DNA of 64,000 bases from a bacterium (lineage in GTDB: Bacteria; UBP15; UBA6099). The DNA lies in assembly GCA_029564595.1 (NCBI GenBank), contig JAKQPS010000081.1, positions 1 to 64,000 on the forward strand. The letters run 5' to 3'. This document shows, piece after piece, positions 16,866 through 44,289 of the stretch; position 1 is the stretch's first letter; each line of letters opens with the position of its first letter. The notes below the pieces were generated by a model that ran no database searches, was not told where the DNA came from, and worked only from the letters and a program-made list of their open reading frames with translations. The position numbers and the translations under genes were made by a program.

Positions 16866-17795
16866 TCAGCGGGAATCGCAGCAAATCGGATGAAACTCTT
16901 TTTCTCCAAAATGCTCCACGTATTCTATCCTCGGACCGGGACAACGGTCATTGAACGCGCATTGCGCGCAGGCCTCCACATGGCGGCCCGACTCGAATGG
17001 AGAGTCCTCCGCTTTGAACGCCCTTCCGTCTGGCATAACAATCATCAGCCCCAGCGAAGCCACGGCGTAGTACATTTCCGGCCTGTTGCCAAGCATGCAG
17101 GGCGGCACGTGGGTAGTCATCGCTTTCGCCCCAAAAACATCCGCCGCAGCCGCAGCTCCCGCCGCCGCAACTCCGGCTTCCGTCATTGTAGGAACCATCT
17201 TTTCGCCCCGCCCGCCCGCTCCGAATATCGAATACAGCCACATGTCGAATCTGCCTACCCCGACCTTGCAGAAGTCTTCAATCAATCCCGCCTCCATGCC
17301 GACCGAAACAGAACTCATCAAGAAATCTATTTTTACTTTCGCGCCGTAATGGAGGAGATGTTTGACGCCCATTTCAGTCATTTCGAAGGCCCCAGTCCGC
17401 CCTGCCATCCAGTCATGCGTCTGAGGGTCGCGCCCCCAGATTGAAACTGAAAAGGAATCCGCTCCCGCCGACACGCACGCCTTTGCGAATTCGGGATAGC
17501 AGAATCTTATTCCGTTTGTTTTCACCTCTACAGATGAAAAACCCGCCTCTCCCGCAGCCTCAATAATCGAAATAAAATCGGGATGGATCGAAGGCTCTCC
17601 GCCTCCGAGAATAACCTTTGAAACTCCGTTTTTTAAGTAATCCGACATAATCCTTTTTGCTGATTCCAATGTCATTTCGCCTGAGAAGCCCTGCCCGGAA
17701 ACGCAAAATCTGCAATGAGCGTTGCACTTGCTGAATATCGTCAATTCAATGCCGTTCAAGCCGGAATTCCTTTCTTTCGACTGTCCCTCGCGCAT
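16866..17795 (-). CDS. Radical SAM protein, MoaA/PqqE-like with CX2CX5C tail
   Basis: Radical SAM enzyme of 309 residues. Cluster ligands are C24, C28 and C31 (KCNAHCRFC), followed by ILGGGEPSIHPDF. It shares the SIWGRDPQTHDWMAGRTGAF segment, the counterpart of the SLHG/HD/GAF signature of its paralogues, and a C-terminal CAQCAFNDRC plus PGPRIEY. An alanine-rich insertion (AAAGAAAAADVFGAKA) sits before a TTHVPPCMLG stretch whose cysteine may be a further cluster ligand. It is the middle gene of a three-gene minus-strand set: fused double radical SAM, this gene, methyltransferase, with gaps of 39 and 14 nt. Substrate unknown. Confidence 0.87.
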   Translation of the reverse strand: MREGQSKERNSGLNGIELTIFSKCNAHCRFCVSGQGFSGEMTLESAKRIMSDYLKNGVSKVILGGGEPSIHPDFISIIEAAGEAGFSSVEVKTNGIRFCYPEFAKACVSAGADSFSVSIWGRDPQTHDWMAGRTGAFEMTEMGVKHLLHYGAKVKIDFLMSSVSVGMEAGLIEDFCKVGVGRFDMWLYSIFGAGGRGEKMVPTMTEAGVAAAGAAAAADVFGAKAMTTHVPPCMLGNRPEMYYAVASLGLMIVMPDGRAFKAEDSPFESGRHVEACAQCAFNDRCPGPRIEYVEHFGEKEFHPICCDSR

Positions 17796-17834: not shown

Positions 17835-20081
17835 TTATCGGTCGCTTTTTTCTTTTCCAAAAACATAAAAACCAGCGCATGCCACCGCTGCCGGGCATGC
17901 CTCGCATTCAGTTTTTTTCTTCCTGCGCTGGTCAAGATATTTTCCCAAATTCATCGGCGGGCTGTCCGCAAAAACCATGTCTCTTGAGAACTTCCCGGTT
18001 TCCGGCTCCGTTTCTCCCAAAACATCCCGCGCGATACAATGCGCAAGGTTGATAACTCGAACTTTGAAACGTCCCTTGCGGGCAATGATCGGAGCCGCGA
18101 CGACTTCGGCAAGTTTCCGGGCGTCATATCTATCAAAACCCATCGCGTTTCCGTGCGGGGTTATAAACTGAGCGTTTACGGCCCCGACCCCCAGCGACTC
18201 GAAGAAGGCCAGCATCTCGTCGAAGAAAGGAGCGTTCCATTCGGTGATAGTGGTGTTTATTGAAAACTCCACTCTCTTCGGCTTCAGTTCGACTATGTGT
18301 TTTATTCCGGCCACTGTCTCGTCGAAACTGCCCGCCCTCCTAGTGTGGATTTCATGAAGCTCCGCAGTGTGGCCGTGAATGGAAACAAGAACGCTGGTCA
18401 GTCCGCTGAGAAGGAAGCGGGACGCGGCGCCTCTGTCCGCAAGCTTCCTAGCGTTGGTGGTGACATTGATGTTTTCATATCCAAGCTCGCTCGCCGCCGC
18501 CACAAGAGCCATGAAAGCCGGATGCGCCGTCGGCTCGCCGCCGTCGAAATCCACAGACCGCGCTCCTCGTCTTCGGTACTCCTTTAGATATTCCACAATC
18601 CTCGCCGTGTCGCCATGCGCCCTCTTTCTGTCTCCCACAGCGCAGAACACGCAGTCGTTCGAGCATTCGTATGTCAGGTTCACTATAAGCTTGTCTAGTT
18701 GCGTATCCGCGAGTCTTTTTCTGAAACAAAACATCATTTCCTTGAGTCGCTCCGCAGGGAACTCCGGCCTGTCGAACGAAGGCTCGCCAGTGAAATGGGA
18801 ATACAACAAGCCGGGATTGAAATCTGACAGCAATCCAAGCTCCTGCGCGCGAGCGTGCATCTCCGACCCCGGAACCGGAGTCGCATATTGAACCAGAGGA
18901 GCGGCCCCGTGCCGCTCCTTCATCGCCATCGCTCTCTCCAGAGTTAGATTAGCCTCTTGGGGAGTCTCAAAAGGAAATCCAATCACATAATGGACCTCCG
19001 ACGCGACGCCCTCCTCGGACATCATTTCAAGCGCTTTTTCCGAATCCCTCAGGGAAAGCCTTTTGCCTATCTTCTCAAGCGTTTTTTCGCATCCGCTTTC
19101 CTCGCTGATTTTTACCCTGCCCGCTATCTTTTTTAGAATTTTGAGATGTTCTCTGGTGACGCAGTCGGCCCTCAGGCCATTGGGAAAATCGCATTTCAGA
19201 TTCAGAGATTCCACGATCTCCAAAACTTTCTGGAACCTATCCTTGTCTAGGTTGGGGGCGCTTTCGAGAAACACGATTTTCTGCGCTCCGAAAGAGTCGG
19301 CATAAGCCTTGAGCGTCCTTTGAACATTCTCAGGGGAAGCGGCCCTCAAAACATGCTTTTTCTGTCCGGGGTTTGACGCGCAAAAAACGCACCCGAAAGG
19401 ACATCCTCTAGTTGTCGCCACAGGCAGAGAACGCAGATAAGGAACTCCCCCTCCTGAACTAAAAACCTTCTCGTAACGCTCTTGGAAAAGGTAATAATCC
19501 TCTAACGATACCAAGTCCCACGCAGGGATTGGAAGTTTGTCCGGAACGACATCGGCCGCGTCGCATTCGAGAGCTGCGCCCGAATTCCTGCGACATCCGG
19601 CCGCCACCCCCGCAATCATCGCTTCCGTCTCATATTTCACCACTGTGTCGATTTCAGGATAGCTGCGCATCAGATCTTTTCCGTCATATTCGATATAATG
19701 CATGCCAGAAAAATAACAGTCCGCAGCGATAAGACAGGCGTCGGGCCACGCGGCCCTCGCCGCCTCGAACACATACGCGCAATGCGCGTTCGCCACGTGC
19801 GGAGACAGAAAAGGCGACACTGCAACGACAACCGTCTCTGCGGCGAACTCCCCGAACCTCTCCGTCAAGTTTTCCATCGGCGCGCCGAGGCTCGCGAAAT
19901 CTTTCTCTTTCACCGCTACAGACGATTTCTCGCAGAATGCGTCCGCCACAGACACATCCATACCCGCCTCCCTTAAAACGGCGGCGTTCGAAACCGCGCC
20001 CAGCGTCAGGTATTGCGGGTAATCGATATAAACCGGCCCAAGCCGCAACGGAGGATTCATCATTATCAGCTTCTTCTTCAT
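17835..20081 (-). CDS. Fusion of B12-type radical SAM and second radical SAM domain
   Basis: Two complete radical SAM enzymes in one 748-residue chain. Residues 1-180 are the cobalamin-binding-type domain (TLGAVSNAAVLREAGMDV). The first radical SAM core carries C227, C231 and C234 (TTRGCPFGCVFC). The second core begins near residue 463 with C473, C477 and C480 (YECSNDCVFC), GGEP at 514-517 and SIHG...LHEI...GSFDETVAGI, matching the MoaA-like paralogues nearby. It ends with CEACPAAVACAG (CX2CX5C). No frameshift or stop separates the halves. The fusion implies two sequential radical reactions on one substrate or within one pathway; this is inference. It heads a minus-strand operon with a third radical SAM gene and a methyltransferase. 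Confidence 0.9.
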   Translation of the reverse strand: MKKKLIMMNPPLRLGPVYIDYPQYLTLGAVSNAAVLREAGMDVSVADAFCEKSSVAVKEKDFASLGAPMENLTERFGEFAAETVVVAVSPFLSPHVANAHCAYVFEAARAAWPDACLIAADCYFSGMHYIEYDGKDLMRSYPEIDTVVKYETEAMIAGVAAGCRRNSGAALECDAADVVPDKLPIPAWDLVSLEDYYLFQERYEKVFSSGGGVPYLRSLPVATTRGCPFGCVFCASNPGQKKHVLRAASPENVQRTLKAYADSFGAQKIVFLESAPNLDKDRFQKVLEIVESLNLKCDFPNGLRADCVTREHLKILKKIAGRVKISEESGCEKTLEKIGKRLSLRDSEKALEMMSEEGVASEVHYVIGFPFETPQEANLTLERAMAMKERHGAAPLVQYATPVPGSEMHARAQELGLLSDFNPGLLYSHFTGEPSFDRPEFPAERLKEMMFCFRKRLADTQLDKLIVNLTYECSNDCVFCAVGDRKRAHGDTARIVEYLKEYRRRGARSVDFDGGEPTAHPAFMALVAAASELGYENINVTTNARKLADRGAASRFLLSGLTSVLVSIHGHTAELHEIHTRRAGSFDETVAGIKHIVELKPKRVEFSINTTITEWNAPFFDEMLAFFESLGVGAVNAQFITPHGNAMGFDRYDARKLAEVVAAPIIARKGRFKVRVINLAHCIARDVLGETEPETGKFSRDMVFADSPPMNLGKYLDQRRKKKTECEACPAAVACAGFYVFGKEKSDR

Positions 20082-26180: not shown

Positions 26181-26243
26181 CGGAAACTCATTTTTTTGAG
26201 ATTCTTCTCTTTGTGTGCCTTAGAGCCTTTAATAATTATAATT

Positions 26244-28067
26244 ATGGTGAGGCGGGAATGCGACCAGTCTGCGAGGTTGATCTTGATAACGGCTCTCCAT
26301 ATATGCAATTCATGCAACAATAAGTGCATTAAATGCGACAAGACTCGATACGACAACCAATGCTTTCTGCATAAGGCTGATGTTTTGAACAGGCTCCAGC
26401 AAATAAAGGAATCGGGAGTTTCAACCGTAGCTCTATGCGGCGGAGAGCCGACCATAAGCCCGTTTTTTTTCGAAATCGCCCGCGCGGTCGTCGAAAAAGG
26501 CTTGAAGATCGGATTGATGTCGAACGGCAGAATGTTCTCATATAAAAATTTCACTGACGAGTTCGCATGCCTAAACCCGGACTTCATCCACATTACTCTA
26601 CATTCCTCCGACATGGATGTTCATGACCGCATCGCCGGAGTGAAAGGAGCTTTCGCCCAGACCATGTCGGGCTTGCGCAACATCTCCCGGATAATGAAAA
26701 GAATTTGCATACGCACGCCCGTCAACGATTTTAATGTCGACTCTATTGATGATATCCCCAGAATAGCCAGAAGGCTCTGCGTGAACGCCGCTGTGACATT
26801 CTCCGTCGGAACATCCCGCCACATCGGGTGCGGCGGCTACCCTGCAGAGCCGCTCGACATAGCGGCGGCCGCCCGCGCTGTTGTTGACGCAATCAGGAAA
26901 ACAAACGATTCGAACGCGCGCGGCGTTTCAATCGCTATCGAAGGCTTCCCTTTATGTCAGCTTGAAGGATTCCATCATCTATGCGCAGAGCCGACGGATA
27001 AAGACATCGTATTCTCGTGGGAAATGGATGGCGGAGGTTTGAATCCCATGTTTTCAATTCCTGAAGAGCGCGGCAATTCTTCGGAGTGTCTCGTGTGCTC
27101 CAGACGCGCCGGATGTCGCTCGAATTTCAGAGAACTCCGGGTTCCATTCATAGAAAACACGCCGAACTCAGTTGGATATGAGTATTCGAGGACAATCGTT
27201 GCGAATCCGTCTTCAACATGTCCGATAGGAGATGCCGAACGATCGACAATCCATCCGCTTAGAGAAACAGCCCTTCTTAAAGGCGGCGACATCGAGGTGT
27301 ATTCGACTGGCGGAAATTGCGGCTCCGATTCGCTTTACGATATCAAGTTCGTCAAACAGCAACTCTATCTTAATGTGTCGGGGATGAGCAGAAACTTGGA
27401 TTTCAGAACCGCTTTCAGAAGGCTCAAGCTGAGGGATGAATGCGCGGAATGTTACCGCCGCGCATTCTGTTCGGGACTTTTTGAGGCTGTCGAAGGGAAC
27501 GCTTTCTCCGGAATAGAGAAAAAGGAGCTTGATTGGCTTTCTTCCATAAGAGGATCAGTCCTCGACATCGGATGCGGAACCCCTCTTTTTCCGGATGCAA
27601 TAAGACACAAGATATCTGCGGGGGAAATGACCTACCTCGGAGTTGACAAAAACCCCGGCCATTCTCCAGAATTAGAAATATCGGCGGTCGATTTCGAGGA
27701 TTTCGCGTGGGCTGGACCGCCTTTCGACCATGTTATGATGCTAAGAAGCTATAACCACTTCAAGGACCCTCGACTTATCGTCGAAAAAGCGGCCTCTCTG
27801 CTCCGCTCCGGAGGCATGCTCCATATCTTCGACAACTGCCTCTTCGGCGCGCTAAAAAGAAATGTGGTCGATAACCCGACGAACATCGACCGTCATCCTC
27901 ACCAGCATTACAGAAACCACGATTCCGAGGAAGCCGCGGCGCTGATTATGAAACTTGGCTGTTTTGAGATTCTCGATCATATCCCAGTCAGCCCGAGCGA
28001 GGCCAATCAGTGGTTCCTTACTTTGAAAAAATCAAGACCCGCTTATGCGGAGACCAAATCAATATGA
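26244..28067 (+). CDS. Radical SAM-methyltransferase fusion protein
   Basis: Two-enzyme chain of about 607 residues. The N-terminal radical SAM core has C24, C28 and C31 (CNNKCIKC), CGGEPTISPFFF, and TLHS...VHDRIAGVKGAFAQT, the signature of the local MoaA-like group. Two separate CX2CX5C motifs follow (CLVCSRRAGC and CAECYRRAFC), flanking a segment unlike known domains. The C-terminal quarter is a class I methyltransferase: VLDIGCGT at 439-446, YLGVDKNPG, and a late HIFDNCLFGALKRN. The ATG at 26244 is chosen; the frame is open to a TTG at 26196. A radical reaction followed by methylation of the same molecule is inferred. It is the first gene of a plus-strand set with the cysteine protein and the tandem radical SAM gene. 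Confidence 0.85.
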   Translation: MVRRECDQSARLILITALHICNSCNNKCIKCDKTRYDNQCFLHKADVLNRLQQIKESGVSTVALCGGEPTISPFFFEIARAVVEKGLKIGLMSNGRMFSYKNFTDEFACLNPDFIHITLHSSDMDVHDRIAGVKGAFAQTMSGLRNISRIMKRICIRTPVNDFNVDSIDDIPRIARRLCVNAAVTFSVGTSRHIGCGGYPAEPLDIAAAARAVVDAIRKTNDSNARGVSIAIEGFPLCQLEGFHHLCAEPTDKDIVFSWEMDGGGLNPMFSIPEERGNSSECLVCSRRAGCRSNFRELRVPFIENTPNSVGYEYSRTIVANPSSTCPIGDAERSTIHPLRETALLKGGDIEVYSTGGNCGSDSLYDIKFVKQQLYLNVSGMSRNLDFRTAFRRLKLRDECAECYRRAFCSGLFEAVEGNAFSGIEKKELDWLSSIRGSVLDIGCGTPLFPDAIRHKISAGEMTYLGVDKNPGHSPELEISAVDFEDFAWAGPPFDHVMMLRSYNHFKDPRLIVEKAASLLRSGGMLHIFDNCLFGALKRNVVDNPTNIDRHPHQHYRNHDSEEAAALIMKLGCFEILDHIPVSPSEANQWFLTLKKSRPAYAETKSI

Positions 28068-34833: not shown

Positions 34834-37044
34834 TTAAAATCTTCTCGTCGCCGAATCGCATATCGTTATGCGCCTATATGTGGCGCGTCCGAACTTCTCG
34901 AAAGTAAACAAAAAATGGTTCAGCCCGGGTTTCCTTTCGACATTGTAAACGGGTTTGTTCCTGTCGTCGTTTCCCGGAAGATATGATATTTTGCTTTCAT
35001 TCTCTTGGAGAACCAGTTTGGCGCTGTCTTCCGTTTGTTCGAGTTCGAACGCAATGCGAGCTTCGCCTATTTGCGGCGCAACAAAAAACAACAGATTCAT
35101 TTGTTCGGTTATATGACGGGAATCGCTTGCCACCCTGACATCAGGTTCGGCTCCTCTCACGAAATAATAGTCGTTTTCGCCTGCCGTTATGTCGAAGCAT
35201 CCGTCATCTTTAAATTCCACCGGCTCCGGCTTCATCGCATAAAGGCTAACCGTAACACCGTCGAACCGCTTGGTTTCAAGCAGAAGGCCTCTTTTCAACG
35301 CGTTTCTGATATCCTTTTCGTACTTTCCGGAAAAATCTGGAAAAGCTCCAAGAAACCTAGTGTCGGTGTCGAAATGCCAAACCCGGCCGATGTAGTTGCT
35401 CTTCAACAATGCTTCGTGCGATATTATTGATAGAGGCGCGATATTCATCATAATCACATTCGGCTCTTTCCCGCCGACTATTCTAAGGGCTGCCCATTGA
35501 TTGTAATTCCTAACAAACGCCTCCTCTCTGCTATCTCCGCCGAGATAAACAAGAGAGGCTTGAAAGGGCTGTCCCTTTTGCGACAGAAAATGAGTGTGAT
35601 ATTCATTTTGGAAATATATGTTTCCGGGAATAATGCCGTCGTATTCGCGGACATTCCCGTAAACATACCGCATCGCCGATGTCATGTCCGGCGACCTAAG
35701 CCTGCCGAAAAAACCGGGAAGATTGGCCGCGAAAACAATCATGGCAATAAAACAAAAGACCGAGCGAGAAAACCCTTTTCCCGCCGAGAACAAGCGGCCT
35801 ATGGCATCGAGCGCGAAAAATGCGTTATAGACGAAGAAAAAACTCATCATCTGCAGATGTCTGTACGACATCGGATAGCCATCGAACCGGCTGTGGTTCA
35901 AAGCATTGGTAATAGTCAAAACGGAGCACGCCGCCACCCCCAATAAAACAAACATCGCTCCGTTTGAGCCGCGCGCAATTAGTCCGACCGCCCCGATTGC
36001 ACAAAGAACTCCGATAACCACCGCAGAGACGGCGTTATCCGACACGAACGACATGAATAGATTCGGCATCACTTTCAAACAGTATGACAGAAACTCGGCG
36101 TTCCCCCCCGGGAACAATTGATAAACTCCCAACCTTGCCGTCGAAGGGGCTGAAATCAAGTCGATTTCCGTCCTGAATACGACAAGATGCGAAAGATTGA
36201 AGAGACAAGACCCAGCCGCCGCCGCCGCGACTGCGAAAAACAACCAGCCCGCACCCTTCAGATTCCTTGCCGTCTTGCGCGCGTCCAGCGCAGCCGCCGC
36301 AAAAAACGCCGCTATCCCATAAAATGTCAGAACATGAAAAAACGGCAGCAGAAAAATCGAAGCGACCATTGCCGACGCGCTCTTTTTCGATCCGGTTTCG
36401 CAGAATACAACATATGAATACACAAGCGCTATGAATAAAAACGCGACAATCCAATAAGGCGAAAACCTGTAAACGCTATACGCCGACATCGGCGACATGA
36501 CAAAAGCCGCCGTCCCAAACATAGCCGAATAACGGTTTACATTTCTTGAGAGAAGCTTAAACGCCAGAGGAGCCGAGGCTGTCATCGCAGCTAGGTTGAT
36601 AATTATGTATGCGTCTCGCGAGCCGCCGAGCAATTCTCTTATCAACCAGCTTATCAACATATAGCCCGGCCTGTGAATATTCGACAGGTATGCCCGGTTC
36701 GCAAAAAAATCGGTTAGCTCGGTGAACTCTCCTTCATAATAATACGCGAAATCCATATACTCATAAGAGACCATCCCGCGAACCAGAAATAACAACAACG
36801 AGAAAACGGCGGCAAATGAAAAAACATATCTCGCTCCCAAGATATCATGTCTTGAAGCATTCTGTCCTCGGATGTCCGCAGGCTTTGACTTCGCGATAAT
36901 CGCGACGGCTATCGCCAACGCGAACAAACTCGCCGCAAACGATGCCGCGCCCAGAACTTCAAAAAGACGGCCTCTCTCAGTCGCGGCGAAAAGCTCGTAC
37001 AGGTAGCCCTGCGCGTCCATTATGTAATTAATTTTTTCGTACAA
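34834..37044 (-). CDS. Polytopic membrane protein with soluble C-terminal domain, GT-C-like
   Basis: Protein of about 736 residues with some eleven hydrophobic segments up to residue 430 and a soluble C-terminal part. The first large loop (SYEYMDFAYYYEGEFTEL, then RAYLSNIHRPGYMLISW) is acidic and ends in RPG, a layout seen in GT-C-type membrane glycosyltransferases. The tail (LFFVAPQIGEARIAFEL, FLFTFEKFGRATYRRI) looks like a beta-sandwich. The TTG at 37044 has GAGG about 6 nt upstream and is used; the ATG at 37020 is an alternative without a binding site. It follows the small gene at 37063 by 18 nt and belongs to the long minus-strand series 30.7-44.3 kb. Substrate unknown. Confidence 0.65.
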   Translation of the reverse strand: MYEKINYIMDAQGYLYELFAATERGRLFEVLGAASFAASLFALAIAVAIIAKSKPADIRGQNASRHDILGARYVFSFAAVFSLLLFLVRGMVSYEYMDFAYYYEGEFTELTDFFANRAYLSNIHRPGYMLISWLIRELLGGSRDAYIIINLAAMTASAPLAFKLLSRNVNRYSAMFGTAAFVMSPMSAYSVYRFSPYWIVAFLFIALVYSYVVFCETGSKKSASAMVASIFLLPFFHVLTFYGIAAFFAAAALDARKTARNLKGAGWLFFAVAAAAAGSCLFNLSHLVVFRTEIDLISAPSTARLGVYQLFPGGNAEFLSYCLKVMPNLFMSFVSDNAVSAVVIGVLCAIGAVGLIARGSNGAMFVLLGVAACSVLTITNALNHSRFDGYPMSYRHLQMMSFFFVYNAFFALDAIGRLFSAGKGFSRSVFCFIAMIVFAANLPGFFGRLRSPDMTSAMRYVYGNVREYDGIIPGNIYFQNEYHTHFLSQKGQPFQASLVYLGGDSREEAFVRNYNQWAALRIVGGKEPNVIMMNIAPLSIISHEALLKSNYIGRVWHFDTDTRFLGAFPDFSGKYEKDIRNALKRGLLLETKRFDGVTVSLYAMKPEPVEFKDDGCFDITAGENDYYFVRGAEPDVRVASDSRHITEQMNLLFFVAPQIGEARIAFELEQTEDSAKLVLQENESKISYLPGNDDRNKPVYNVERKPGLNHFLFTFEKFGRATYRRITICDSATRRF

Positions 37045-37062: not shown

Positions 37063-37284
37063 TCATCGAAAATAACCATCGACCCCGAAGGTCTCATTAA
37101 CGGATTCAAAACCCCTCGCGCGACAATTGCCCGCGCCTGCCAAGTTCCGGGACTCCGTCTCGGCGATATGCAAAGCGAGCTTGCCAATCATTAGAACGTT
37201 CATCGTCGTGATAGCCCCGGACGGATTCGGCCAATCGTCAAAATGCCCGTTAGCGTTGATAGAAACTATTTTCGGTTGTTTCAT
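37063..37284 (-). CDS. Small protein of unknown function, coupled to U32-methyltransferase gene
   Basis: Predicted 73-residue product (MKQPKIVSINANGHFDDWP...). Its ATG overlaps the TGA of the upstream U32-methyltransferase gene in an ATGA, and its stop lies 18 nt before the next gene, so it fits the operon spacing exactly. The sequence matches no family I recognise and lacks a leader/core layout typical of a modified peptide, though NAN, GAGN and the glycine-rich end are noted. It may be a small partner protein or the remnant of a longer gene. Confidence 0.4.
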   Translation of the reverse strand: MKQPKIVSINANGHFDDWPNPSGAITTMNVLMIGKLALHIAETESRNLAGAGNCRARGFESVNETFGVDGYFR

Positions 37285-38660
37285 TTTCTCTTCATTGCCG
37301 CGAACATCATGCTCAATCGCGTGCGTCTCTCCGTTTTATTTTCCTCGCAATGGAACAACCCTTCAGCGGCTTTCTCAATATCGCCGACGGAAACCGACCA
37401 TTCGGGAATCTGTCCTTCGACATATAAAGCCGGAAGCGGGGACTCCTTTCCCGTCCACGCGCATATAATCAAAATTCCTCCCGGCTTGATAATCCTTCCC
37501 GCCGCCTCGAAATATTCCCTTCTTCGCCAAGGAGGGATGGAATGGAAACACCCGTAATCGACCGCCATGTCGAAGAATCGGTCATATCCGTCGAGATTAA
37601 GAATGTCGCCGCAAATAAAAGTTCCCGCATTTTTTTTATCGGCCCTCTCCAACGCCTTCGGGGCTATGTCAATACCATAATAGTTTAAGCCTGCGAACAA
37701 CTCGGCGTGTCTTCCTTCTCCGCATCCAATATCTAACGCGTCGCGAATTCCGCCCGCCGCCGACTTAACGGCTCTCGCAACCATTCCGGCGAGCGTTTCA
37801 TCAGGCTCTTCGCCCCACAACTCCCTCTGTTCTTTGACCTCGAACAGCCTGTTCCAATCAAGGAACAGCGGCTCGCCGCGCGTGAAGTTGTGATTCGGAA
37901 ACACAGGCATATACACCAGCCTGTCTATCAAGCCGTCGGGCGAGCCGACGGTCATCCGGTCGTTTGTGTAGTATTGCGCGTTGCCTTGCATGAATATTTC
38001 CGCCCCTAGGTTGTGAATCGCGATGTTCTCTCCAGAGCAACTGACAGGACAATAGTCTATAGTCCTGAACTTGAAATTGCCCTCCGCCATATTTGCGAAG
38101 TGGCATTTTCTCGTCGCCGCGCAACACACATGCGGATAATACAACGAGTATTTCATTTTGAAATCGCGGTCGAGACGCAATCCCTGAAAAACGTTGTCCA
38201 ACTCCGACCTTCCCGCTCCCAGAGCTGAAAGCAATTCAAGATATTCACTCTGAAGATTGTTTTCCGTGAAATAGTCGGAGAACGGCTCTCCTTTGAAGCC
38301 GAGCCTAGGATCTTTTTTCGCCTTGCATAGCAACCTTCCATGAACAGGGGTTTTACCGGCTGCTCTGATCGCTTGCAACAAGCCCCAGTCGTTAAACACA
38401 ACCTCGGCGCTTCCGGGGAGCGCTTCTATCAGGCGTTCGCATTTTTCAATGCATCTCTCGGAACATGGAGGGGTCACAAGCGTGAATCCCGCTCCGGCTC
38501 TTCCGGCAAACTCAAGCGTATTCTCAAGCTGCTTTTCTGTCGGAAGCAGAAACTCGCAGAACTCGTTGCCGAAATAAATCCTATCGAATCTGGAATTGTG
38601 AAAATACTTCAAGTCGGCGGGATCGGAAATATAAAAGGCGTGCTCCATCCGGGTTGTCAT
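37281..38660 (-). CDS. U32-like (UbiV-type) protein fused to methyltransferase
   Basis: Residues 1 to about 270 look like a peptidase-U32-family TIM barrel of the UbiV type: IYFGNEFCEFLLP (C35), LVTPPC, NDWGLL, then C179/C180, C186, C204 and C208 (HVCCAATRKC, YCPVSCSG), the expected Fe-S ligands. In E. coli, UbiV carries four cysteines in a comparable order and works with UbiU in oxygen-independent hydroxylation. Residues 300-459 form a class I methyltransferase (ALDIGCGEGRHAELF, YYGIDIAPKALERA, DMAVDYGCFHSIP, IIKPGGILIICAW). It overlaps the UbiU-like gene by 4 bp at its start and the small gene by 4 bp at its end. Hydroxylation followed by O-methylation of one substrate is inferred. Confidence 0.76.
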   Translation of the reverse strand: MTTRMEHAFYISDPADLKYFHNSRFDRIYFGNEFCEFLLPTEKQLENTLEFAGRAGAGFTLVTPPCSERCIEKCERLIEALPGSAEVVFNDWGLLQAIRAAGKTPVHGRLLCKAKKDPRLGFKGEPFSDYFTENNLQSEYLELLSALGAGRSELDNVFQGLRLDRDFKMKYSLYYPHVCCAATRKCHFANMAEGNFKFRTIDYCPVSCSGENIAIHNLGAEIFMQGNAQYYTNDRMTVGSPDGLIDRLVYMPVFPNHNFTRGEPLFLDWNRLFEVKEQRELWGEEPDETLAGMVARAVKSAAGGIRDALDIGCGEGRHAELFAGLNYYGIDIAPKALERADKKNAGTFICGDILNLDGYDRFFDMAVDYGCFHSIPPWRRREYFEAAGRIIKPGGILIICAWTGKESPLPALYVEGQIPEWSVSVGDIEKAAEGLFHCEENKTERRTRLSMMFAAMKRK

Positions 38661-39682
38661 CGATTGCCGCCGCCTTCCCCTGAAACATCTTCCGACAAGC
38701 TGTCATAAGACAGCGAAGATGTCCATTTGACCACTCCCTGAACCATCTGCGGTCGCGCAGGCTCTCCGGTGACATTTGAGTCAGGCTTTCGCCCGACGCT
38801 GTAATAACACTTCCTTCCGCATCGCTCTCCGAACACTTCCTTGTGCAACTCGGCGCATTTCCTCCCGTATTCCTCCTCGGTTTCGCTGATATCAATGAAT
38901 CCAACCGCTCCTTTTAGAAAACTCACATCCTTTAATATCATGTCCCCTGCGAGACCTCTGCCCGCTATCTTCAATACTAGGTCTTCTCTATTTCTTAACG
39001 AAAAAAGCGCGCACACTCCGCATGAATCAAGCGAATACCCGAATCCGGCCGGCAAATGATTGTACAATATCGCTTGCCTGCACATATTCGGCGATTCCTC
39101 TCCGGGGAAATGGCAATACGAGCATACTCCTTCCAAATAGGGGCATTCTTCATTAATCACTATCAACTCATGGCCACAGTCCTTCTGGCTGCTTGCGATT
39201 TTCGCGATTTCACCCGGCAAAAGCTGTCTGGGAAGAACTATCCTGTCCGCGCCCAGACCTCTGTAAAATGCCGCCGATTTGGCGTTCATAACATGGGCGG
39301 TCGAGCTTAGAACGATAAAAAGCCCGCTGTCAGCTTTTTTTAGTTTGATCATTAGGTTTATATCGGAGACTATGAAGCCGGAAACCCCGCCTGCCGACAA
39401 CTTCACAACATCGTCAATAAGAGCGTCGTGCCAATTTTCCGGATAGAAAAGCTCGTTTATCGCCACAAAAGACTTGGCGCCGAGTTTCACTGTTTTCTCG
39501 CAAACCGCCAGAACTGACTCGATAGAATCAAAATTGGTCAATTCTCCGAATCGGCGACTAAATAAATCTTCGTTGGAAATATCAGTGTTCCTATAACCCA
39601 TATAAAACTCGTCTGCGCCCGCTTCCGCAAAATCATCCAGCAACCCAACCGTTTTTTGATTCAATGGACAATGTATTATCAT
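38657..39682 (-). CDS. U32-family (UbiU/YhbU-like) Fe-S protein
   Basis: Protein of 341 residues in the peptidase U32 family. It opens with the barrel strands IIHCPLNQKTV and ADEFYMGYR, followed by GVSGFIVSDINLMIKLK and LGADRIVLPRQLLPGEI, the RxxxxxEI segment characteristic of U32. Candidate 4Fe-4S ligands are C180, C187 and C201 (EECPYLEGVC, NMCRQ), with C221 or C224 completing the set. Known relatives are UbiU (ubiquinone hydroxylation), RlhA and TrhP (RNA hydroxylation) and true proteases; the intact cysteines favour the Fe-S hydroxylation group. The stop overlaps the ATG of the UbiV-like fusion gene (ATGA), so the pair is translationally coupled, as UbiU/UbiV pairs commonly are. Confidence 0.8.
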   Translation of the reverse strand: MIIHCPLNQKTVGLLDDFAEAGADEFYMGYRNTDISNEDLFSRRFGELTNFDSIESVLAVCEKTVKLGAKSFVAINELFYPENWHDALIDDVVKLSAGGVSGFIVSDINLMIKLKKADSGLFIVLSSTAHVMNAKSAAFYRGLGADRIVLPRQLLPGEIAKIASSQKDCGHELIVINEECPYLEGVCSYCHFPGEESPNMCRQAILYNHLPAGFGYSLDSCGVCALFSLRNREDLVLKIAGRGLAGDMILKDVSFLKGAVGFIDISETEEEYGRKCAELHKEVFGERCGRKCYYSVGRKPDSNVTGEPARPQMVQGVVKWTSSLSYDSLSEDVSGEGGGNR

Positions 39683-39806: not shown

Positions 39807-41189
39807 TCAGTCTTCGAGTCGCGCCGCCTTTCGGCGGGCTCTGCCTCGACTGCTTACGGGCATAAACAGAAAAGAACGGACAGCTTCTGCGAAGGAAACA
39901 AGACTTCGTTTAAGGCTTAAGTTCCTCGCCAGATAAAAAACTTTTCGCGGCCTGAGATAGAACAAGGCGTAAGCAAACCTTGTGACAAGCCTTGTGGTCA
40001 AAGAGACATCCCCGACCGCATGATCGATTTCGCAGAGCTTTGATCCCGGTCTTGGGTCGAACACATTAAAAGAAGCGTAGCCGGGATCGAGTCTGACCGC
40101 CGCAACCGCGGTTAAAAACGCGCTTTTTGCGCTTTCTCCGGGCAACCCCAGTATAAAATGAGACCCCGGAATTATCCCTTTTTTTCTCATCAAATTGAAT
40201 GCTTCCCGCGCCCGTTCAATGTCCACTTCTTTGCCCATGCTTCTGCCTATATCCTTGTCGGAAGTTTCGATGCCTATCTGGAGCAACCGGCATCCTGATT
40301 CCGAGTACATCTCTATCCTCCGCTCGTCAAGCAAATCCAGTCTAGTGTAAGCGTGCCATGTAATGCTTGTTGCCTCGTTGGCGAGCGCGCGGCACAGCCT
40401 CTCAACCCGCGCGGAATCAACTCCAAAAGTCATGTCCTTGAAAAAAATATGACGAGCGCCCCGCGAATACAGACTTGCGATTTCTTCCATCATATTTTCA
40501 TGATTCCTGAAAGAAAAACCCGGCGATAATGCCCCGCTATTGCAAAACGCGCAGAAATACGGACACCCGAACGACGCCAAAACAGTGTTGAACGACTCGG
40601 GTACCAAGGGCATGTTGTAATTCTTTTTTTCAAACGCCTCGTGATCCGGAACAGGGTATTCGAATTCCTTCATCTTGCGGGTCCGAACAACCTCGATTTT
40701 TCCATTTCTTCTGAACGCCGACGAATCCGCGCTTTCGAAATCGCCTGTCGCCAACCGGACAATATCGCTTGAAGTAAAATCAAAAAGAATCGCGTCTATG
40801 AAATCGCGCTTATCGAGGAATTCCTCTGGGTTTTCCAGACATGCGTCGCCGGAAACGACTATTGTCGCTCCGGTTTTTTCCTTGATCTCTTTAAGAATAA
40901 TTGCGTCGGTTTCAATTGAGAGAGATCCCACAAGACAGAAAACCGCGGTCGGCAAATAATCAGTTGCTGTTCTGACGACTGATTTATGCGACGCCCTTTG
41001 CGCCACCGCGTCCAGAACCGCCACTGTGCCGCTCTTGCCCAGAATTCCACTTTGAACGAGAAGGTCTATCGGATGCCAAAGATATCCTGCCTTGGAGACA
41101 GTGCAACAGTAATAATCTCTTAGTATCTTTCGATAATAAGGAGGGTTCAGAAGAAAAAAACGATCCCTCGCGCTGCGAACAATCTCCAT
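39807..41189 (-). CDS. B12-binding-type radical SAM protein
   Basis: Radical SAM enzyme of 460 residues. The N-terminal half is a cobalamin-binding-type region (LLNPPYYRKILRDYY, ATIVVSGDACLENPEEFL); the core holds C209, C213 and C216 (FGCPYFCAFC), IFFKDMTFGVDSARV, LLQIGIETSDKDIGRSMGKE and GSHFILGLPGES. The tail is very basic (SSRGRARRKAARLED). A strong GGAGG lies about 5 nt before the ATG. It lies 124 bp upstream of the U32 pair on the same strand, so hydroxylation and radical methylation of a common product is conceivable. Substrate unknown. Confidence 0.87.
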   Translation of the reverse strand: MEIVRSARDRFFLLNPPYYRKILRDYYCCTVSKAGYLWHPIDLLVQSGILGKSGTVAVLDAVAQRASHKSVVRTATDYLPTAVFCLVGSLSIETDAIILKEIKEKTGATIVVSGDACLENPEEFLDKRDFIDAILFDFTSSDIVRLATGDFESADSSAFRRNGKIEVVRTRKMKEFEYPVPDHEAFEKKNYNMPLVPESFNTVLASFGCPYFCAFCNSGALSPGFSFRNHENMMEEIASLYSRGARHIFFKDMTFGVDSARVERLCRALANEATSITWHAYTRLDLLDERRIEMYSESGCRLLQIGIETSDKDIGRSMGKEVDIERAREAFNLMRKKGIIPGSHFILGLPGESAKSAFLTAVAAVRLDPGYASFNVFDPRPGSKLCEIDHAVGDVSLTTRLVTRFAYALFYLRPRKVFYLARNLSLKRSLVSFAEAVRSFLFMPVSSRGRARRKAARLED

Positions 41190-41300: not shown

Positions 41301-42776
41301 TCAGAAAAACAATTCCATCCTTGTGGCTCCGAAATACGGCTCTTCAGGCAACCCCGGCCTCGTCCTTCTCTTTCCTGTCGCTTCGCAGAAAAGTCCGTCT
41401 TCAAGAAAAAACAAATCTTCGAGCGGAACGCTTCCCTCGATAAACCTGCCTCCTACGGCAAATTTATAATAAGTGTGAACATCCGATTTCTCCTTGCCGT
41501 CTTTATCTTTTGCGCAAACACGAATGGCGGAAGCCGCGCTGGTAAAGTCATTGCTTATGATGTTTATCAAGTTGTCGCAATTGTGATCATCCTCGTCGCC
41601 ATAGAACAATAGACGGAACTCTCCTCTTGGCACGCCTAAGCGGGGCGGTTCCACGGAAAGCGGAATCCTCATTAACATATTCAAATCAACCCGCCAGTAT
41701 AAAAACTGGGAATCCCTCGCGAAAAAAACTGCGGTTATGCCATCCTCCTCCGGACTAACCGGAGATCTCCGGTAACAAGGCGATATTCCAACCCAATCAT
41801 CGAGACGTCCGTCAGTCTCTATCACAGCTTTATGAACCGTGCATTTCTTGATTGCTCTTTCAGACAACGCCCATTTTCCATTCTTCTTGTTCAGAACGTT
41901 GATTGATATCCAACTTGAGTTGACATACCGTTCCTCGTCGTTCGGCTCTCCCATCGCTATTGTTTCGTAAGCCGTCGCCTCGGCTCTGTCTTTCTCCACC
42001 GTTATCGAAGCGATTTTCACTTGAAGCTTTATATTGCCGAAAAGCTTGTGAAGCTCGTTAATTTCTCGAACTACATCGTCGACTTCATTTAGCGTCGCGT
42101 TGCCTATGGATATCTTAGCCGGCTTGAAAATCATCTCTCTGATTTTCGCTCCGTCATTGGCGTTAAACGCCTTGATGAAGTCTTCCATTGCTGTTTTCGC
42201 TTCCTCTGTAATGCCAACGCTATCTCCGGGAGAGCCGTATGTCGCCGTTAGGTCCGTCAAAGCAATATTGAAATCCGGGACATCAATCATGTAATCCATC
42301 GCGCCGACCGCGGTTGCGCCTTCCGGATAACCTATCCCGTCCGCCAAAGCCCGCAACTCCTTCGTCATGAATTCGAACTCCGCTGACGTGTAATTCGCGG
42401 GATCAGCGGATATAATCTTCCATGTCAACGCTTCCGTTACCGGGTCAATATCGTTCGTCTTCCCGAAAAGAATCGTCCTAATCGGCCCTCCGTCCGTCTC
42501 CGCGCTTAATATTCGCGTTTGTTTTCCCTCTGGTAATTCAATCTTATACACGCCTTTGTCGTCTGTTTTGCCCTCGGCCAGCGACGCCCCTTCGATTGAC
42601 ACAGCTTTCACTACAACCCCGGACGCCGGCTTCAGCGCCACTTTTTCAGAAGCTTTATCATCTTTTTTCGCCGGAACCGTCCACACCGTTCCTGAAATCT
42701 CCATTCCCGACAGCGTACCGGCAAAAATAACCGCGTAAGTGAATAGAATCGACAGAATAAAAAACGTCTTTTTCAT
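41301..42776 (-). CDS. Secreted protein with carboxypeptidase-regulatory-like and CBM9-like parts
   Basis: Exported protein of 491 residues with signal peptide MKKTFFILSILFTYAVIFAG. Residues 28-110 look like a carboxypeptidase-regulatory-type beta domain (GVVVKAVSIEGASLAEGKT, DDKGVYKIELPEG). The middle (AMEDFIKAFNANDGAKIREM, then KIASITVEKDRAEATAYET, WALSERAIKKC) fits an NTF2/SnoaL-like fold. The end (IETDGRLDDWVGISPCYR, FLYWRVDLN) resembles a CBM9-like domain that binds sugar or acts as a sensor. GAGAGG lies just before the ATG. A promoter with a flanking inverted repeat lies at 42816-42868. Role unknown; possibly an envelope glycan-binding protein. Confidence 0.72.
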   Translation of the reverse strand: MKKTFFILSILFTYAVIFAGTLSGMEISGTVWTVPAKKDDKASEKVALKPASGVVVKAVSIEGASLAEGKTDDKGVYKIELPEGKQTRILSAETDGGPIRTILFGKTNDIDPVTEALTWKIISADPANYTSAEFEFMTKELRALADGIGYPEGATAVGAMDYMIDVPDFNIALTDLTATYGSPGDSVGITEEAKTAMEDFIKAFNANDGAKIREMIFKPAKISIGNATLNEVDDVVREINELHKLFGNIKLQVKIASITVEKDRAEATAYETIAMGEPNDEERYVNSSWISINVLNKKNGKWALSERAIKKCTVHKAVIETDGRLDDWVGISPCYRRSPVSPEEDGITAVFFARDSQFLYWRVDLNMLMRIPLSVEPPRLGVPRGEFRLLFYGDEDDHNCDNLINIISNDFTSAASAIRVCAKDKDGKEKSDVHTYYKFAVGGRFIEGSVPLEDLFFLEDGLFCEATGKRRTRPGLPEEPYFGATRMELFF

Positions 42777-42972: not shown

Positions 42973-44289
42973 TCACTCCGCGCCGGACCTCAAGAGGTTT
43001 CGCGGTTTCGAAGTGAATATCAACTGTTTGATTGTCTTGCTTAACTCAAAAAACTTCAGCGCATCGGCAAACTTAATCCCGAACTCCACTCCTGAGGAAG
43101 AAAAACTAATAAAACCTCTATCTATCAGCATCTCGAAATTTTCCCTTGCAAATCGTTCGGCGTCGCAGCCAAAAACCGATTCGAAGTATTGAAAAGGCAA
43201 GCAGGCTCCATCTCTTAAATGCAAAAGAAGCATATCCAGCGCTTCTTCAAAAATGTCTTTCCGATATCCGACATACTCTCGAGCCGCAAAACCTTGCGCG
43301 GCGCCGGAGCGGCCCAGATTTTTATAAAAAACCTTTCCGAACAAGTTCGAGCATGAGTTCCGCCCAAGTCCTAACACCGCAACGGGTCTCCTGCTGTGAA
43401 GCTCGTACCTATTGTCTTCGTTATAAAGATTATTGGAATTCCCTGCTATCAGACACGTCGTCAGCTTAGACGATTCCTTCAAAATTTCGAGGCTAGATCC
43501 CGCCAATCCTGATGTAAAGATTTCCTTTATCCTGTCCCAATCTCCAAGAGATTCTCCACTCATAGCCATCTCGCTGGGCGAATACTGTTGTCCCAGATTC
43601 TGAAGACAGTACAAAGTAACAGTGTCAGAGCCTAATCCCGACGCCTTCTCAACCGTCTCTAAGAACGTCTTATCGGTCTCTCCGGGTAGAGGCGCCAATA
43701 GGTCGATATTCACCACGCTCGCGCCGCATTCTTTTGCGAAAGCAATAAGTTCCGCCGTGCGCATCAGGTCGGCTTCTTTCCTTCCCGCAACCTCCAATAC
43801 CTTTGGCGTCAGAGACTGAACCCCTAAACTAATCCGTTTAATGCCATGCTCAACCACGGTCTTTATTTTTCCTGAAGTCGCCGAGTTCGGATTCATCTCG
43901 CATGTCGAAACAGCTCTTCCTGATAGTTTGAAACAGCTTCGAACCTCAGACACCACATCGTAGAAATCGTCCTCTTCGTAAATAGTCGGCGTTCCCCCTC
44001 CGAAATATAAGCCATCAAACTCAAGCCCTTCGACAGCTTCGGCAGTCTCGAGCGCCTCGTTAAGCAAGAATTTCTTTTCCTCGGTCAAGGCCCCTTCTTT
44101 CAGAAGCGGCTCCGATTCGTACATACAGAATTTACACTTGCTTGAGCAATATGGAGTATGAACATATACGTAACTTCTTACATGCTTTTTGTCCGGGAAT
44201 TCCTCCCGACAAAATTCTTTCCACATGCCTAGGATTTCGTTCTTTTGCAATGGATCGAACCGCAATGCCACGCTCCTTATCGAAATCAT
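42973..44289 (-). CDS. HemN-like radical SAM protein
   Basis: Radical SAM enzyme of 438 residues in the coproporphyrinogen dehydrogenase-like (HemN/HemW/ChuW) group. Landmarks are YVHTPYCSSKCKFC (C48, C52, C55), LYFGGGTPTIYEEDDF, CEMNPNSAT (counterpart of the E-x-N-P segment), ISLGVQSLTPKVLEVAGR, and NIDLLAPLPGETDKTFLE. The C-terminal third (FEEALDMLLLHLRDG, MLIDRGFISFS) resembles the HemN-C helical domain. Unlike HemN the cluster motif lacks the extra cysteine after CxxxCxxC. Members of the group decarboxylate, methylate or open porphyrins; with the c-type cytochrome in the cluster, haem chemistry is possible, but the substrate is not shown by sequence. It is the first gene of the minus-strand series. 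Confidence 0.85.
   Translation of the reverse strand: MISIRSVALRFDPLQKNEILGMWKEFCREEFPDKKHVRSYVYVHTPYCSSKCKFCMYESEPLLKEGALTEEKKFLLNEALETAEAVEGLEFDGLYFGGGTPTIYEEDDFYDVVSEVRSCFKLSGRAVSTCEMNPNSATSGKIKTVVEHGIKRISLGVQSLTPKVLEVAGRKEADLMRTAELIAFAKECGASVVNIDLLAPLPGETDKTFLETVEKASGLGSDTVTLYCLQNLGQQYSPSEMAMSGESLGDWDRIKEIFTSGLAGSSLEILKESSKLTTCLIAGNSNNLYNEDNRYELHSRRPVAVLGLGRNSCSNLFGKVFYKNLGRSGAAQGFAAREYVGYRKDIFEEALDMLLLHLRDGACLPFQYFESVFGCDAERFARENFEMLIDRGFISFSSSGVEFGIKFADALKFFELSKTIKQLIFTSKPRNLLRSGAE

Follow-up and report, generated by a model that had tools for sequence, protein, structure and literature searches.

A U32-type gene pair with a class I methyltransferase fused to its UbiV-like member in a UBP15 bacterium

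Introduction

The closest described relatives of the system reported here are UbiU and UbiV of Escherichia coli, two U32-type proteins encoded by adjacent genes in the order U then V. Their established iron-sulphur (Fe-S) cluster ligands are C169, C176, C193 and C232 in UbiU and C39, C180, C193 and C197 in UbiV (PMC6747719). Labelling with 18O2 showed that hydroxylation by UbiUV is independent of O2 (PMC10470549), and a 2024 review gave prephenate as the oxygen source in anaerobic ubiquinone synthesis and named the group U32 oxidases (PMC11574389). Here, we describe a gene pair of the same layout in a stretch of 64,000 nucleotides from a little-known anaerobe of the candidate phylum UBP15 (assembly GCA_029564595.1, contig JAKQPS010000081.1, positions 1 to 64,000; referred to as the window), whose second gene additionally encodes a class I S-adenosylmethionine (SAM) methyltransferase fused to the UbiV-like domain.

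A second group of precedents concerns RNA. TrhP requires prephenate, and in Bacillus subtilis trhP1, trhP2 and trmR form one operon in which tRNA is hydroxylated at U34 and then O-methylated by TrmR, a catechol-O-methyltransferase-like enzyme (PMC6599085). The locus in the window is alike in combining a U32 pair with a methyltransferase in one operon, and it would likewise carry out hydroxylation and O-methylation; it is unlike in that TrmR is a separate protein of another type, that the B. subtilis substrate is tRNA, and that TrhP2-like proteins lack the V cysteines. A TrhO-TrmR fusion, found in Phytophthora and a diatom (PMC6599085), also joins a hydroxylating protein to a methyltransferase, but TrhO is an O2-using rhodanese-family protein and not a U32 protein. 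An earlier, sequence-only reading of the window had offered hydroxylation followed by O-methylation in one complex as a plausible new combination; the B. subtilis operon anticipates it on tRNA (PMC6599085), and what is unusual here is the covalent fusion and the subfamily.

Results and discussion

Organisation and conservation of the gene pair

The two genes are encoded on the minus strand, which the sequence-only reading had left unstated. The first (38657..39682) encodes U, a U32-family TIM-barrel protein of 341 residues, and the second (37281..38660) encodes a protein of 459 residues. Alignments and cysteines in the UbiV register place the V-like (UbiV-type) domain in residues 1-256 of the latter (37893..38660), whereas Pfam matches and structure matches spanning residues 276-459 place the methyltransferase domain in residues ~277-459 (37281..37832). 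The stop codon of U and the start codon of V overlap as ATGA (38657..38660), in agreement with the sequence-only reading. In many relatives, however, the first residue corresponds to M5 of the fused protein, so translation of V may in fact start four codons further downstream, in which case the two genes would not overlap.

The fusion was found in frame in three of the four genomes of one UBP15 genus, namely the 4.4-Mb window genome and, as orthologues at 91% identity, G002 and G001, the G001 copy being cut at the contig end. A chance fusion or an assembly artefact was ruled out, since the same in-frame fusion is present in three separate assemblies. The fourth genome of the genus, G003, is 92% complete, and a profile search did not find the fusion in it. 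Between the window and G002, the ratio of nonsynonymous to synonymous substitution rates (dN/dS) was 0.10 for V, 0.34 for the methyltransferase domain and 0.15 for U residues 1-297, i.e., all parts of the pair are under purifying selection. The U-V pair is not a product of chance, because relatives share both the gene pair and its cysteines, with 88 V genes counted at 86 loci. We also observed that dS between the window and the G002 copy (L034) varied along the pair, from 0.64 in U residues 1-297 to 0.06 in the U tail and ~0.21 in V and the methyltransferase; the pattern looks like that left by recombination, with a breakpoint close to where U ends.

The U subunit and its extra cysteines

U is a genuine U32 protein, matching PF01136 with 62.8 bits (cut-off 22.4, E 3.8e-17). 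It also matched the NCBIfam quinone_UbiU model, at 55.4 bits and thus under the 440-bit cut-off; the same model matched 20 of 20 U-family members tested at E ≤ 0.1. The U-family profile matched the UbiU profile with E 2.5e-38 and scored TrhP and TrhP1 about as well as UbiU. The predicted U model (mean predicted local distance difference test, pLDDT, 77.6) is a TIM barrel with the U32 protein Mk0906 (5d88) as the best solved match (Foldseek E 4.5e-9; Z 16.2, root-mean-square deviation, rmsd, 3.8, 209 aligned residues), unrelated TIM barrels being within Z 1 of it. Against solved structures, the U-family profile gave a weak match to 5d88, and a phmmer search of a PDB copy found neither a U32 relative nor a UbiU structure.

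Cysteine conservation was counted in 82 non-redundant U proteins. Three of the canonical cluster ligands, C180, C187 and C201 (codons within 39080..39145, minus strand), which align with C169, C176 and C193 of E. coli UbiU, were kept in 82, 82 and 74 of them. The fourth UbiU ligand, C232, has no counterpart at that position in U, and C221 or C224 may replace it. These two residues form an extra C-x2-C pair (39011..39022, minus), each conserved in 75/82, while C288 and C292 form an extra C-terminal C-x3-C pair (38807..38821, minus), each conserved in 74/82. The two pairs occur on an all-or-none basis except in one protein: the four cysteines were all present in 74 U proteins, absent from seven and partial in one, in a tally that includes three UbiU rows, which lack all four. 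Moreover, C28 or C276 was present in 71 of the 74 proteins with the complete set. Since the four are gained and lost together, the extra cysteines (four or five) suggest one additional metal site on U, most simply a second [4Fe-4S] cluster. The sequence-only reading had listed C180, C187, C201, C221 and C224 in U and C35, C186, C204 and C208 in V, and all were recovered; it had not included C276, C288 and C292, of which the last two are widely conserved.

The V domain and its relation to UbiV

The V half (the first ~260 residues of the fused protein) had no Pfam or NCBIfam match at E 0.1, the NCBIfam UbiV model included. Because domain models do not match V, we assigned it as U32-type through its family alignment and cysteine register. 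In a joint alignment of 99 V proteins and 11 UbiV proteins, C35 (codon 38556..38558, minus) shared the column of UbiV C39 and was present in 99/99 V proteins, and C186, C204 and C208 (codons within 38037..38105, minus) shared the columns of UbiV C180, C193 and C197 and were present in 98, 98 and 97 of 99. The four cluster cysteines of UbiV and four other invariant residues fell in the same columns as in V in three of three alignment modes. Fe-S ligands are conserved in both proteins, with the V register equal to that of UbiV, the very feature on which the sequence-only reading had staked its hydroxylase idea. In a phage collection, we found one unannotated partial match to V, at 34.9%.

Compared to UbiU-UbiV, the pair in the window has the V cluster cysteines in identical register and three of the four U cluster cysteines in common. 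It differs in failing the curated models, in having no match to C232 at that position, in the four or five further conserved cysteines of U, in the fused methyltransferase, in its radical SAM setting, and in having no UbiT-type neighbour among the proteins scanned. The proposed likeness to UbiU/UbiV stands insofar as this is a U32 pair of that type in which the Fe-S ligands are conserved. The model scores nevertheless led us to reject assignment to UbiU or UbiV themselves, and the pair belongs to a separate family.

Distribution of the U-V family

A scan with one genome per species gave 25 loci, comprising two UBP15 copies, one full-length V-methyltransferase (Woesearchaeota) and 22 matches to the V part, the best of which (L042) reached query residue 282. 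Profile searches, run at thresholds that were unequal between phyla, found V in 5/7 UBP15 genomes (1e-3), in 4/371 genomes of the phylum of the Woesearchaeota genome (1e-10) and, at 1e-15, in 28/384, 35/294 and 37/395 genomes of the phyla of an Omnitrophica genome, an Elusimicrobiales genome and G061, respectively. A same-strand U gene was located within two genes of 69 of the 88 V genes; this count, from 86 loci, omits L034, L035 and the duplicate L148, and some loci end before a partner could appear. Each of the five V-bearing UBP15 genomes encodes exactly one U32 protein, the partner U, and G003 and G006 have neither U nor V. The U-V genes form a separate, large and apparently undescribed sister family, spread over UBP15, Omnitrophota, Elusimicrobiota, other bacteria and, rarely, archaea.

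The methyltransferase domain and other fusions

The methyltransferase, complete as first read, scored above the cut-offs of five Pfam class I models, with Methyltransf_25 and Methyltransf_11 at 58.3 and 57.3 bits. It contains LDIGCGEG, which we take to be methyltransferase motif I, and superposes on 5ufm_A with Z 19.2 and rmsd 3.0 over 175 aligned residues. The fused class I SAM methyltransferase is intact.

Other genomes with U32-methyltransferase fusions, suggested as a check in the sequence-only reading, do exist: besides G002 and G001, one Woesearchaeota genome has two (L041 and L138), in each of which a class I methyltransferase is joined to a V-like domain and a U gene lies close by. The L041 protein (1237 residues) is unlike that of the window in having B12-binding, radical SAM and glycosyltransferase domains in front of V and the methyltransferase, and the L138 protein (520 residues) has the reverse order, methyltransferase first and then V. 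At L041:1268-6845, two giant fusions follow each other, the first radical SAM-SPASM-glycosyltransferase and the second the V-methyltransferase protein described above. Separate methyltransferase genes directly beside U or V were seen in L037, L038, L053, L145 and L146, and in L037/L038 their order and family are as in the window. The methyltransferase link is recurrent but minor across the U-V family, and the fused form is narrow, being confined to one UBP15 genus and one archaeon within the genomes searched. Among the open-licence PMC papers searched, and with the word combinations used, none dealt with the fusion of a U32 protein to a methyltransferase or with peptide clusters that contain U32 proteins.

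In a quick tree, the window V grouped with the L041 V (support 70). The approximately unbiased (AU) test equally allowed a grouping of the window with L037/L038 (p 0.51) and did not reject window, L041 and L138 together (p 0.29); adding L145 to these gave p 0.08. The methyltransferase tree did not resolve a common origin of the window and Woesearchaeota domains. A search by hidden Markov model (HMM) detected no methyltransferase in the V frame of 15 long V frames from Elusimicrobiota and the phylum of G061, a check that left out others, e.g., G070:C62, G906:C36, G1025:C49 and G1093:C37. Seven loci (L208, L209, L210, L211, L214, L215 and L219) have a V-like domain at the C-terminus of frames of 545-815 residues with unidentified N-terminal parts. 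The window contains another fusion, a 623-residue protein with a radical SAM domain and a methyltransferase domain (26196-28067). In Acetoanaerobium (L230:3306-5233), a methyltransferase gene directly precedes a U32 gene; we presume these to be TrmR-like and TrhP1-like, with an adjoining MltG-like gene.

Genomic setting

The pair sits in a block on the minus strand. A HemN/HutW-like radical SAM protein (42973..44289; assigned by domain models) is followed by a 491-residue protein with a hydrophobic N-terminus and weak bMG3 and SnoaL-like matches (41301..42776), a B12-binding-like radical SAM protein (39807..41189; Pfam/NCBIfam), U, V-methyltransferase, and a 736-residue protein that is probably membrane-bound and has no family match (34834..37044). 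The block is whole in L034 and kept in L035 as far as the contig end. Between the window and L034, V-methyltransferase and the 736-residue protein are 91-92% identical, whereas the B12-type radical SAM protein is 71% identical. In L141, a 35% relative of the B12-type protein sits two genes from V.

Radical SAM genes were enriched within three genes of U or V (95/465 vs 21/282 farther off, p 1.2e-6) and were present in 45 of the 86 loci; the HMM used to detect them was derived from domains of window proteins, and related loci are not independent. Ten window proteins have Pfam radical SAM domains. In L223 (Elusimicrobiota), U and V lie beside relatives of the window proteins encoded at 17835-20081 (43% over 745 residues) and 16866-17795 (38%). 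The former is a double radical SAM protein of 748 residues, and its relative (L223:5415-7661) has identical length. Because these relatives adjoin U-V in L223, the window radical SAM genes 17-20 kb away are tied to U-V pairs.

Some Omnitrophota U-V loci resemble, as we take it, peptide-tailoring clusters. PqqD was found in L053 and L145 (Pfam) and in L146, L149 and L156 (similarity); HPr-kinase-like proteins were found by similarity in L053, L144-L147, L152 and L154, with a weak Pfam match also in L053; NTP_transf_5 was found in L145 and L053 (Pfam) and in L144 (similarity). In L145, L053 and L146, U-V lies amid a set, varying from locus to locus, of PqqD, HPr-kinase-like, NTP_transf_5 and SPASM radical SAM genes. 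Near the window pair, a similarity search found no PqqD-type protein, and no HPr-kinase-like or NTP_transf_5 gene was found there.

Neither SCP2 (UbiT-type) nor other ubi genes were present among the seven block proteins scanned, no scan of the whole window with SCP2 models having been made; the earlier statement that no ubi genes are nearby holds for these seven proteins. The genome does have one UbiA-family gene, at another location. In UbiV plasmid loci, SCP2 is annotated beside UbiU/UbiV in 8/10, and the other two carry no annotation. The archaeal U-V at L138:2978-4451 and the Acidiphilium plasmid UbiTUV at L180:4834-5870 are both near pyridoxal phosphate synthase genes, annotated as pdxS/pdxT in L180 and presumed by us in L138.

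Proposed function and alternatives

We consider it most likely, if somewhat short of an even chance, that U and V constitute an O2-independent oxidase, possibly prephenate-dependent, and that the fused methyltransferase caps the new hydroxyl of a specialised metabolite. The two U32-type proteins, related to UbiU-UbiV, would form a heterodimer, in which V would hold one [4Fe-4S] cluster through C35, C186, C204 and C208, and U would hold the canonical cluster (C180, C187, C201 and one more ligand) and probably a second one formed by the extra cysteines. The dimer would hydroxylate, without O2, a metabolite that the adjacent radical SAM enzymes produce or alter, perhaps with prephenate as the oxygen donor, a role suggested for it in other U32 oxidases; prephenate should be made, because prephenate dehydratase is encoded in 7/7 UBP15 genomes. 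Within this complex, the methyltransferase would then methylate the hydroxyl just introduced, and a methoxy product would result. The data establish the two genes, their fusion, the conservation of the ligands, the selection on them, the repeated pairing of U with V and the radical SAM surroundings, from which the dimer, its clusters, the hydroxylation, the oxygen donor, the O-methylation and the class of substrate are inferred. Also in favour of the proposal are the prephenate dehydratase genes, the fused and separate methyltransferases of relatives and the O2-independence of UbiUV.

Several results weigh against this proposal. The UbiV profile scored the 99 V proteins at best with 14.5 bits and the window protein with 4.1 bits, none of the scores being significant, and the profile-profile match of V to UbiV was modest (E 1.2e-4, probability 55%). 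The model of the fused protein (mean pLDDT 75.2) is uninformative on the V fold, as the matches listed cover the methyltransferase half. Only three of the 88 V genes in the locus sample are fused (window, L041 and L138), methyltransferases were not enriched within two genes of U or V (5/341 vs 7/440, p 1.0), and for directly adjacent genes p was 0.07. Moreover, the methyltransferase domain is less constrained than V, and among the structures that resemble it are methyltransferases acting on N, S, C and O, so that the target atom may be any of these.

The choice of atom is at the centre of the alternative that survives best, namely that U-V is an O2-independent oxidase as above, whereas the methyltransferase acts at another position of the shared substrate (N, S, C or carboxyl) and the fusion only co-locates two tailoring reactions of a single pathway. 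We regard it as possible but rather doubtful. The solved structures closest to the methyltransferase domain, i.e., echinomycin S-methyltransferase, phosphatidylethanolamine N-methyltransferase, Rv0560c and toxoflavin N-methyltransferase, act on many atoms, and unfused U-V pairs are the rule in the family. However, fusions in both domain orders fit a direct hand-over, and in the UbiUV pathway it is the new hydroxyl that UbiG methylates. The newly made hydroxyl is likewise the atom methylated by TrmR in the TrhP1/TrhP2/TrmR system (PMC6599085).

A different chemistry at the Fe-S centres, such as dehydroxylation, desaturation or electron supply to the radical SAM neighbours, seems unlikely to us. 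It would accommodate the extra U cysteines, which hint at one more cluster of the kind found in electron relays, the strong radical SAM neighbourhood, and the distance of the family from tested members: in a tree, the branch between 75 V and five UbiV proteins measured 2.98 changes per site, a length that makes placement risky. Nevertheless, all characterised Fe-S U32 proteins in the consulted portions of PMC6747719, PMC10470549, PMC6599085 and PMC11574389 take part in hydroxylation.

Still less probable is a role in RNA modification, in which tRNA or rRNA would be hydroxylated and then methylated. The B. subtilis operon of a U32 pair and an O-methyltransferase (PMC6599085) is a precedent, and UbiU is only slightly closer to the U family than TrhP and TrhP1 are; what speaks against RNA is the partner, the methyltransferase and the setting. 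TrhP2-like proteins, so labelled from size and gene order, have two (Listeria-type) and one (Enterococcus-type) cysteines and hence not the V ligand set, and the V profile scored them with 13.7 and 1.4 bits (E 0.14 and 790, search size 1e5). TrmR is catechol-O-methyltransferase-like (PMC6599085), whereas the window methyltransferase matches Methyltransf_11/25. The genes are absent from the 92% complete congener and sit amid radical SAM genes, unlike a housekeeping RNA enzyme. Finally, an anaerobic quinone hydroxylase-methylase (ubiquinone or similar) is very improbable: the relation to UbiU/UbiV and the single UbiA-family gene in 6/7 UBP15 genomes would favour it, but the block proteins scanned include no ubi gene, G003 and G006 carry UbiA-family genes although they have neither U nor V, and U falls under the UbiU cut-off while V is unmatched by the UbiV model.

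Implications

An O2-independent U-V oxidase coupled to O-methylation would bear on an open question, how Fe-S U32 proteins form C-O bonds without oxygen, and a U32 family with an attached methylation step gives a built-in readout in the form of the methoxy product. The radical SAM neighbours and, elsewhere, the PqqD neighbours point to anaerobic natural-product tailoring beyond quinones and RNA. We must add that the narrow fused form is of less interest than the family at large, in which extra cysteines and radical SAM neighbours are found. In its broadest version, which we put forward tentatively, the U-V genes would represent a large family, as yet undescribed, of U32 oxidases that work without O2, in which a U-V complex with three Fe-S clusters, one of them additional on U, tailors specialised metabolites, including ribosomal peptides in the Omnitrophota clusters that contain PqqD, HPr-kinase-like, nucleotidyltransferase and SPASM radical SAM genes, and to which a methyltransferase may have been wired more than once, in UBP15 and Woesearchaeota, to give anaerobic methoxylating complexes.

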